Source: Winogradskyella pacifica
Lineage (GTDB): Bacteria > Bacteroidota > Bacteroidia > Flavobacteriales > Flavobacteriaceae
Assembly (NCBI RefSeq): GCF_013403915.1
Contig: NZ_JABFDI010000019.1
Span: 1-64,000 of the forward strand
Direction: 5' to 3'
Length of the DNA stretch: 64,000 bases
In this document: one piece after another, positions 12,835 to 49,216 of the stretch
Position numbering within the stretch: the stretch's first letter is position 1
How the letters are laid out: the number at the start of each line of letters is the position of its first letter
Notes under the pieces: model-generated
Database searches by the model: none
What the model was told of the DNA's origin: nothing
What the model saw: only the letters and a program-made list of their open reading frames with translations
Translations under genes and position numbers: made by a program

Positions 12835-14247
12835 TTACCTAAAATGATAAACCATTTTTTCACCTTCTTTATTGATCACCTCAATTTGAAGTGGTTCATT
12901 AACAGCACGTGTTTTTATGGCATCTTGAGCATCGTCTATAGAATATAATTTCTTACCGTTAATTTTAGTAATAATACTACCTTCTTCAACTCCATTTTTA
13001 TTCCAAGATGATTTATAATTTTCATCTAGTTTATTAATTTTTACTCCGTATTCCGTCTTGCTGCGCTTTAATTCCTTTTCTGAAGCATTTTTTATAAGAC
13101 CAATTGTTGGCAATGTATAGATTGATGGTTTTAATAAGGTAACAGGAAGTGTTTCTTCATCACCATCTCTAAGTAAGGTAACATTAACGACATCATCAGG
13201 ACTCTTAGTTTTTAAATACCCCGACAAATCAGAGAATTTATTAATTTCTACATTATCTATTTTTCTAATGATATCACCAGATTGAATCCCTGCTTTTTCT
13301 GCACCTGTACCTTCTTGCACTTCACTAACATAGAACCCTTCTGTGGAGTTGACCTCTAGTTTTTCTGCCGCTTCACTGTTTAGTGCACCACCAGAAACAC
13401 CAAGGATACCGTTTTGCACGTTACCATATTCCATTATGTCATTCACAATTTTACGAGCAATATTACTTGGCACCGCAAAAGAATAGCCTATATAAGAGCC
13501 CGTTTGCGATGAAATAGCAGTATTTATACCTATAAGATCTCCATTAGTGTTAACCAAAGCACCACCTGAATTACCTGGATTTACAGCAGCATCGGTTTGT
13601 ATAAAGGACTGCATATTTTGGCCAGATAAATCTCTAGATTTTGCGCTAATAATACCAGCTGTAACAGTAGAGTTAAGATTAAATGGATTACCAACAGCTA
13701 AAACCCACTCACCAATTTTTGCATTATCAGAGTCACCAAAAGCCATAAATGGTAAATCTTCATCAGCTTCAATTTTTAGTAGGGCAATATCTGTTGTCTC
13801 ATCTGTACCAATCAATTCGGCCATGTAAGACTTGTTGTTATTCAAAGTAATGCTGATTTCATTCGCATTTTTAATAACATGGTTATTGGTAACAATATAT
13901 CCTGTCGGAGAAATAATAACACCACTACCGGTACCCACTTGGGCACGTTGAGAACTGCGACCATAAAAATAATCGCGCATACTTGTTGGTGCATTTACAA
14001 TGGCTGTGTTTTTTACATGCACAACGGAATGTATAGACTTATCAGCAGCTTCAACAAAATTTGGGGTTAATGTTGCATTACTGTTAAGGGTGTTAACGGT
14101 GTTGCTAGTCGGCACAAACATGGGGAATTCGGACGATTGCTCAACGGCTATAGCTTGTGTTTCATTCTCAACAAAAAGTTTGTAACCACCCAAAGTCAAT
14201 AGGCCACCTAATGCAGAAACAAATACCAATGTTATTATCTTCTTCAT
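12835..14247 (-). CDS. htrA: HtrA/DegP-family periplasmic serine protease
   Basis: A protein-quality-control protease and chaperone acting in the periplasm. It has 470 residues: an N-terminal signal or anchor helix (about 5-25), a trypsin-like domain with the triad His123 (TNNHVI), Asp153 (TTDIALL) and Ser227 (GNSGGA), then two PDZ domains (about 275-365 and 385-470). This is the Do type. It is divergently transcribed from dapF, and the shared upstream region carries four GTTAA boxes at 11-12 base intervals (14336-14375) overlapping its probable promoter. Control by an envelope-stress regulator is therefore likely. Confidence 0.95.
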   Translation of the reverse strand: MKKIITLVFVSALGGLLTLGGYKLFVENETQAIAVEQSSEFPMFVPTSNTVNTLNSNATLTPNFVEAADKSIHSVVHVKNTAIVNAPTSMRDYFYGRSSQRAQVGTGSGVIISPTGYIVTNNHVIKNANEISITLNNNKSYMAELIGTDETTDIALLKIEADEDLPFMAFGDSDNAKIGEWVLAVGNPFNLNSTVTAGIISAKSRDLSGQNMQSFIQTDAAVNPGNSGGALVNTNGDLIGINTAISSQTGSYIGYSFAVPSNIARKIVNDIMEYGNVQNGILGVSGGALNSEAAEKLEVNSTEGFYVSEVQEGTGAEKAGIQSGDIIRKIDNVEINKFSDLSGYLKTKSPDDVVNVTLLRDGDEETLPVTLLKPSIYTLPTIGLIKNASEKELKRSKTEYGVKINKLDENYKSSWNKNGVEEGSIITKINGKKLYSIDDAQDAIKTRAVNEPLQIEVINKEGEKMVYHFR

Positions 14248-14335
14248 AATTTTCAGATTTAAGTTTAACTATTTAATAATTATTTTAGGATTATCTACGA
14301 TTAAAATTAGAAATTTATTGATTTCAATTTTCAAT

Positions 14336-14375
14336 TTAACGCCTTTTTAACGTCAAATTTAACGAGCTCTTAACA
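14336..14375. promoter_or_regulatory. Helically phased GTTAA box array between htrA and dapF
   Basis: TTAACG occurs at 14336, 14347 and 14359, and TTAACA at 14370, giving intervals of 11, 12 and 11 bases; on the minus strand these read GTTAA. Direct repeats one helical turn apart are the usual operator form of OmpR/PhoB-family regulators. The array overlaps the htrA -7 box and lies about 25-64 bases upstream of the dapF -7 box, so it could act on either gene. Confidence 0.5.
14354..14361 (-). promoter_or_regulatory. -7 box upstream of htrA
   Basis: TAAATTTG on the minus strand is an exact TAnnTTTG match. It is embedded in GTTAAATTTGAC (14363-14352), a 12-mer also present at the promoter of the two-component operon (49205-49216). 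Confidence 0.5.
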
Positions 14376-14423: not shown

Positions 14424-15197
14424 ATGACATTTTATAAATATCAAGGAACAGGTAACGATTTTGTAATTGTAGATAATCGTTTACAGTATATAAACAAAAA
14501 GGATACCAAACGTATTGCAACCTTATGCGACCGACGTTTTGGCATAGGAGCTGATGGTTTTATACTGTTAGAAAATGATAAAAATGTAGATTTTAAAATG
14601 GTCTATTACAATGCAGATGGTAACGAAAGTACAATGTGTGGTAACGGTGGACGTTGTATTGTGGCGTTTGCAAAATTTTTAAAGATCATTGAAAACGAAA
14701 CTGAATTTATAGCTATTGATGGTCTTCATAAAGCTAAAATTGAAGACGGTTTGGTGCATCTTCAAATGCAAGATGTTTCTGAAATTGAATCTTATGAAAA
14801 CTACATGTTTTTAGATACAGGGTCTCCACATCATGTAGAAATTGTTTCAGGGTTAAAAGATTTTGAAGTTAAATCTAACGGAGAAAGAATAAGAAACGGT
14901 GCACCTTATAATGAAGCCGGAAGCAATGTGAATTTTGTAGAACAATTATCTACAGAAAATTTTGCAGTGAGAACTTACGAACGCGGAGTTGAGGATGAAA
15001 CCTTATCGTGTGGTACAGGTGTCACAGCAGTTGCATTAGCCATGCATAAAAGTGGAAAAACAAAGGCTGATAAAATTAGTTTACAAACCCAAGGTGGTCC
15101 GCTGAATGTAACGTTTAGTACTAATGATAACGGTTACGATAATATTTGGTTAATAGGACCCGCTGAGCAGGTTTTTAAAGGTGAAATTGAATGGTAA
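14424..15197 (+). CDS. dapF: Diaminopimelate epimerase
   Basis: It converts LL- to meso-diaminopimelate for lysine and peptidoglycan synthesis, with no cofactor. The 257-residue protein has both catalytic cysteines in their motifs: Cys72 in MCGNGGRC and Cys196 in LSCGTGVTA; the N-terminal YQGTGNDFV is also typical. Its end overlaps the next gene by 7 bases, and mltG follows, giving a cell-wall-linked cluster. A promoter box lies 16 bases upstream of the start. Confidence 0.97.
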   Translation: MTFYKYQGTGNDFVIVDNRLQYINKKDTKRIATLCDRRFGIGADGFILLENDKNVDFKMVYYNADGNESTMCGNGGRCIVAFAKFLKIIENETEFIAIDGLHKAKIEDGLVHLQMQDVSEIESYENYMFLDTGSPHHVEIVSGLKDFEVKSNGERIRNGAPYNEAGSNVNFVEQLSTENFAVRTYERGVEDETLSCGTGVTAVALAMHKSGKTKADKISLQTQGGPLNVTFSTNDNGYDNIWLIGPAEQVFKGEIEW

Positions 15198-49162: not shown

Positions 49163-49216
49163 GTTAACGTTAGGTTAAACCTAATTTATACTAAATGTTA
49201 AAATGTTAAATTTGAC
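49163..49216 (+). promoter_or_regulatory. GTTAA box array and promoter of the two-component operon
   Basis: GTTAA(A/C) occurs at 49163, 49174, 49197 and 49205, with a related GTTAGG at 49169. Intervals of 11 and 23 bases put the first three on one face of the helix. The last box is fused to the -7 box TAAATTTG (49207-49214) in the 12-mer GTTAAATTTGAC, identical to that at the htrA promoter. The ATG follows 4 bases after the -7 box, so the mRNA may be leaderless, or the promoter lies elsewhere. Confidence 0.45.

Follow-up and report, generated by a model that had tools for sequence, protein, structure and literature searches.

Phased GTTAA direct repeats upstream of rprXY and htrA in Winogradskyella, a probable operator of the response regulator RprY

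The stretch of DNA analyzed here, 64,000 nucleotides of contig C10 in the 4,024,179-base (4.02-Mb) genome of Winogradskyella pacifica and referred to below as the window, carries a sensor histidine kinase gene adjoined by a gene for an OmpR-family response regulator, as well as a gene for an HtrA-type serine endopeptidase that has dapF as its divergent neighbor (Table 1). The best NCBIfam model for the regulator is RprY (NF051850), with 286.4 bits and a runner-up at 162 bits; the score lies below the curated cut-off of 370 bits, which is reached by none of 148 genomes of the phylum and is reached by the control, Bacteroides ihuae. From this best family below its cut-off, and with the regulator gene adjoining that of the kinase, we read the operon as rprXY, a two-component system of the Bacteroidota. 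Of the named loci compared, Subsaximicrobium wynnwilliamsii (Flavobacteriaceae) has the regulator nearest to that of the window, with 93 percent identity. In a tree of 93 regulator proteins, which largely tracks the species but is weak or open in its deep branching, the regulator of the window clusters with those of its relatives, and the regulators of the Bacteroidaceae, the Prevotellaceae and Carboxylicivirga fall into the same large group. The HtrA protein scores 402 bits against TIGR02037, just below the cut-off of 416.2. The two loci lie ~35 kb apart on one contig (12835-51504 of the window), and a similar distance is seen in several other genomes of the genus, for example G031, G018 and G002.

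Table 1. Genes, GTTAA boxes and predicted promoter elements at the two loci (window coordinates)
Feature	Position	Strand	Remark
GTTAA-N6-GTTAA pair upstream of rprX, predicted RprY operator	49163..49178	+	41/41 genus regions; N5 or N6 in 42/66 phylum rprX loci
Two more GTTAA boxes, 8 bp apart, between pair and -7 box	49197-49201, 49205-49209	+	41/41 genus regions
TAAATTTG, predicted rprX -7 box, 28 bp past pair, 4 nt before ATG	49207..49214	+	exact TAnnTTTG
rprX, sensor histidine kinase, 522 aa	49219..50787	+	ORF and family models
rprY, OmpR-family response regulator, 235 aa	50797..51504	+	best NCBIfam model RprY
Four-box GTTAA array upstream of htrA	14336..14374	-	spacings 11, 12, 11; 29/30 genus species
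Boxes of the htrA array	14374-14370, 14363-14359, 14351-14347, 14340-14336	-	array members
TAATTTTA, predicted htrA -7 box, 26 bp past last box	14302..14309	-	one letter off TAnnTTTG
htrA (Do/DegP-type serine endopeptidase), 470 aa, predicted target	12835..14247	-	TIGR02037
dapF, divergent neighbor of htrA	14424..15197	+	alternative target considered, not favored

An earlier note on this DNA had drawn attention to a 12-mer, GTTAAATTTGAC, shared by the regions upstream of the kinase gene (49205-49216, plus strand) and of htrA (14352-14363, minus strand), with the box TAAATTTG inside it at both sites, and a sequence search confirmed both positions and both enclosed boxes. The window contains two exact copies (shuffle mean 0.03; none of 100 shuffles reaches two), and the count in the whole 4.02-Mb genome, which the note had named as a check, is also two (one for the pattern read backwards); with up to two mismatches, GTTAAATTTGAC is not in excess (14 matches against a shuffle mean of 18.4). 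The GTTAA boxes upstream of the kinase gene start at 49163, 49174, 49197 and 49205, and are thus 11, 23 and 8 bases apart, the first two spacings being those that the note had given. In the htrA region, the 12-mer consists of the second box of a four-box array together with its spacer. As the element common to both regions, the exact 12-mer fails in the relatives, where it is retained in only 8 of 30 htrA and 18 of 41 rprX upstream regions of the genus, and it is the phased GTTAA boxes that are kept instead. The observation holds, on stronger grounds than could have been known from the letters of the window and for a different reason than the one first given.

The regulator was detected in 59 of 60 genomes of the genus (93-100 percent identity) and htrA likewise in 59 of 60. 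From these, 30 htrA loci and 41 kinase upstream regions (40 besides that of the window) were inspected, the genome of the window being counted in both sets. The four-box htrA array, with spacings of 11, 12 and 11, is present in 29 of the 30 species, the exception (L131) having three boxes, and the arrangement at the kinase gene, a GTTAA-N6-GTTAA pair followed by two further boxes, is present in every one of the 41 regions. The spacers between the htrA boxes vary (mean column identity 0.78, as compared with 0.76 for the flanks), and the box columns are invariant among the 29, partly because those 29 were chosen by that pattern.

The GTTAA boxes at htrA are also associated with the regulator across the Flavobacteriales. 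In a sample of 99 genomes of this order, matches to the regulator separate into those of at least 266 bits (at least 57 percent identity) and those of at most 224.5 bits. An HtrA match was found in 70 of the genomes, one of which (G099) came without upstream DNA, leaving 69. A sense GTTAA-N5/6-GTTAA pair lies within 300 bp upstream of htrA in 36 of the 40 genomes that have RprY (all except G069, G076, G080 and G110) and in none of the 29 that do not. G133 is counted as having RprY, its rprX gene with a pair being followed by a partial RprY (59.8 percent identity) at the edge of the locus; it had first been scored as lacking RprY, when only 28 of 69 candidates had been scored, and the counts then stood at 35/39 versus 1/30. 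Since the HtrA hits of four families (f6, f8, f11 and f15) start late, at query residue 41 or beyond, and might not be orthologs, we made a separate count of hits that reach the N-terminus, in which the pair is found in 32 of 35 genomes with RprY and 0 of 11 without. Nine of these 11 belong to a single family (f16) with genomes of ~0.6 Mb, and as the genomes without RprY are confined to few clades, the independent losses behind the association are likewise few. Antisense-strand pairs with N5 to N7 spacers occur upstream of htrA in 2 of the 69 genomes, and shuffling of the regions from genomes with RprY yields a mean of 0.16 pairs per 38, as against 34 observed. With only 4 of 395 genomes matching, a strict version of the four-box pattern proved too narrow for tracing the array across the order; one of the matches is a tandem-repeat artefact (G379) and another lies upstream of htrA in a different genus (G146). 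The retention of GTTAA pairs before htrA almost only alongside RprY points to one old stress circuit that controls itself.

At rprX, the pair can be followed through the phylum. Kinase loci were taken from 43 of the 50 order genomes with a match (G069, G074, G086, G096, G113, G121 and G136 were left out), from all but 11 of 48 such genomes sampled across the phylum, and from the 29 of the named loci L347-L378 that have a kinase ORF; G492, whose kinase gene has a TTG start and the boxes, is among those used, and the short loci L317-L346, in which the kinase start is often wrong, were not counted. Within 150 bp of the rprX start, a pair is present at 42 of the 66 loci, as compared with 0.19 on average after shuffling; the order contributes 28 (of 46 loci) and the remainder of the phylum 14 (of 20). 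Among the named loci, 18 of the 28 that are clean have it; the carriers include Arenibacter palladensis, Gillisia mitskevichiae, Flavobacterium glycines, Pedobacter montanisoli, Perlabentimonas gracilis and Carboxylicivirga linearis, and no pair was found in one Bacteroidaceae locus (L357). Start-to-start distances between GTTAA boxes peak at 10 (20 regions) and 11 (30 regions), with further recurring values of 21, 23, 31 and 34 (12, 13, 9 and 12 regions), and no antisense spacing recurs in more than one of the 66 regions. The rprX pair is missing in families f5 (0/10), f9 (0/3) and f14 (0/2) and is found in one of six loci of f18. Family f5 retains the htrA pair (9/9 with sequence) despite its absence at rprX, so that autoregulation through a GTTAA box would not be universal. 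The rprX loci of f5 (L260-L262, L264-L268, L270 and L271) have a long conserved upstream block of their own in place of the pair.

The pairs stand at a nearly fixed distance from sequences that resemble the -7 box (TAnnTTTG) of the sigma-ABfr promoters of Bacteroidota, which TAAATTTG upstream of rprX matches exactly and TAATTTTA upstream of htrA matches in all letters except one. We loosened this motif to TA..TTT[AG] for the comparison of loci. In 37 of the 42 rprX loci with a pair the loosened motif starts 26-29 bases past it, at 27 or 28 in 35 of them, and any other offset from 0 to 69 is represented by at most one of the 42. The offset within the genus is 28 in 40 of 41 rprX regions and 27 in the remaining one, and at htrA the motif starts 26 or 27 bases past the last pair in 30 of 30 regions. 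The latter position makes the inner TAAATTTG, which the earlier note had taken for the htrA promoter and which is kept in 12 of the 30 species, probably not the promoter. Across the order, the htrA motif is less regular: no more than 12 of 35 regions have it at 26-29 bp, and family f1 accounts for 11 of these; in f5 a -7-like box is found at offset 40 in 9 of 9.

In 27 of the 37 rprX loci with the motif at 26-29 bases, 4 or 5 nt separate its end from the start codon. Since transcription in F. johnsoniae starts 4-5 nt downstream of the TAnnTTTG box (PMC6847099), the rprX mRNA is predicted to be leaderless in these loci, and that of the window probably begins at the ATG (49219) or immediately beside it. 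Leaderless mRNAs are rare: in F. psychrophilum they make up 5.5 percent of the mRNAs (PMC9723704), and in B. thetaiotaomicron ~3.7 percent of the leaders are shorter than 10 nt, those of two sensor kinases included (PMC7366714).

Taken together, the boxes, their phasing and their association with RprY make it highly probable that RprY binds the GTTAA direct repeats and controls both its own operon and htrA, probably as an activator, and the conservation in the genus, the order and the phylum, which had been named beforehand as a check, thus upholds the suggestion that one regulator most likely serves the two loci. Phosphorylated RprY would bind head-to-tail to repeats that recur with roughly the period of a helix turn (10-11 bp). 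Autoregulation of rprX would be mediated by the pair placed 26-29 bp, and mostly 27-28 bp, ahead of its -7 box, with the mRNA probably starting at the ATG, and at htrA the four-box array 26 bp before its -7 box would allow the same regulator to set the level of an envelope protease, presumably in response to envelope stress. Because the rprX pair would be located at about -56 to -41, a usual position for an activator, we infer activation from position only. The proposal that RprY of Porphyromonas gingivalis is a repressor of chaperone genes (PMC3646045) counts against this part of the reading.

The most serious alternative, which we nevertheless consider unlikely, is that the htrA boxes are acted on by a paralogous regulator instead of RprY, or that the two regulators share them. 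A second kinase-regulator operon on contig 9 of the same genome (L310:2473-4753) has three GTTAA boxes of its own at 10-bp spacing, its regulator is nearly identical to RprY in the recognition-helix stretch and also has RprY as its best family (259 bits), and some htrA arrays, for example in Flavobacterium-like genomes, use the 10-bp spacing as well. Orthologs of the paralog (at least 245 bits), however, occur in only 6 of the 99 order genomes, as compared with 36 genomes that have an htrA pair, and the htrA spacing of the genus (11, 12, 11) agrees with that of rprX (11) rather than with that of the paralog (10). In the tree of 93 proteins, with its weak deep forks, the paralog is placed on a long branch outside the group of the window's regulator. 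Pairs are present upstream of paralog-like kinase genes in two genomes without RprY (G121 and G096); none were seen in G086, G136, G074 and G113, but there the kinase start could not be located reliably. The paralog operon also has a TACATTTG box a short way upstream of its start, and GLPGLI-family genes lie divergently alongside it.

A chance origin of the repeats in AT-rich DNA, or their use by another factor unrelated to RprY, appears very improbable. It is true that exact GTTAA-N6-GTTAA pairs are no commoner in the genome than the pattern read backwards (32 versus 37), so that the meaning of a pair rests on its place, phasing and conservation; yet shuffled sequences fall far short of the number of pairs observed at both rprX and htrA, and none of the genomes without RprY has the htrA pair. 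The genome-wide count was for the same reason uninformative as a list of regulon members; 30 of the 32 sites were inspected with their flanks, of which 4 fall within reading frames and few are accompanied by a -7-like box at an appropriate distance. That the array serves dapF can be dismissed with some assurance, for even though dapF adjoins htrA in 30 of 30 loci of the genus, the pair is retained in 12 of 14 genomes with RprY whose htrA has no dapF beside it and is missing in all 10 genomes without RprY in which the two genes are neighbors; the array belongs with htrA and RprY as judged from this distribution.

The Cpx system of Proteobacteria (CpxA/CpxR) consists of a sensor kinase and an OmpR-family regulator that controls its own genes as well as htrA/degP through a Cpx box. 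The suggestion of a Cpx-like circuit in the window holds for this logic, in that a two-component system with a regulator of the same family goes with htrA and is predicted to control both itself and the protease gene, and does not extend to membership: the CpxR model (cut-off 341) gives the regulator 110 bits and the CpxA model (cut-off 486) gives the kinase 96.8 bits, the GTTAA boxes are not Cpx boxes, and both the phylum and the promoter type are different. A further likeness is to RprX/RprY of Bacteroides, which share the kinase-regulator operon, and, together with the orphan RprY of P. gingivalis, the best family of the regulator. In EMSA, the P. gingivalis protein binds the groES, clpB and dnaK promoters as well as its own (PMC3646045), which parallels the autoregulation predicted here; it differs in that its authors suggest repression, with sodium depletion as the signal. 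The available passages on the RprY proteins of Bacteroides and P. gingivalis give neither an operator sequence nor a connection to the HtrA protease, and neither an RprY operator nor an RprY-HtrA link was found in a search of open-licence papers. The htrA gene of PMC5706477, to which HaeR binds, functions in haemin transport and is not that of the protease. In F. psychrophilum, genes for protein quality control and envelope stress have been linked to sigma-54 (PMC9723704), and rprY is listed in an expression table for biofilms (PMC5350093). The SaeR site of Staphylococcus aureus, GTTAAN6GTTAA (PMC5083920), is letter for letter that of the rprX pair and is also present as two pairs within the htrA array (14336-14374); the resemblance noted between SaeRS and RprXY is one of the site, and both the phylum and the targets differ. 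If RprY does bind these repeats, one box would be in use in two distant phyla.

A broader reading, which we advance tentatively and at slightly less than even odds, is that GTTAA repeats are the ancestral operator of an RprY-like clade across the Bacteroidota, and that RprXY is the standing envelope-stress switch of the phylum, autoregulated, with a leaderless kinase mRNA and HtrA as its most constant target, the paralog with 10-bp boxes running a second circuit. If so, such a standing role would help to explain why rprX and rprY were found to be essential in a screen of B. fragilis (PMC4072883), and the RprXY-htrA circuit would be a counterpart of Cpx in this phylum, assembled from other parts. 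With a predicted box, a constant spacing from the promoter and a core target, the function of RprXY can be put to a direct test in a harmless laboratory flavobacterium.

When the pair is searched for together with the promoter element in 50 genomes of the genus, 123 matches are obtained, as against 34 for the backwards pattern (summed by hand). Sorting by hand assigned them to rprX (49 genomes), the paralog operon (46), an outer-membrane-protein class (11), a helicase class (8), htrA (1) and others (8), the outer-membrane-protein and helicase classes having been verified in one or two loci only. As the matches beyond rprX and the paralog are at the level of the control, we claim no wider regulon. 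One member of the outer-membrane-protein class, on contig 94 of the same genome (L311:2082-2804), is a TDE1717-like beta-barrel gene (129 bits against a cut-off of 135) that has a GTTAA-N6-GTTAA pair, followed at 28 bp by a TAnnTTTG box, and similar strings occur in 11 of the 50 genomes. A conserved promoter-like GTTAA string is likewise found before a RadD-like helicase gene (L314:1300-1388 and L010; 8 of the 50 genomes, hand-sorted), and the gene on the other side of this string presumably encodes a protein of the ExbD/TolR type, judging by its appearance.
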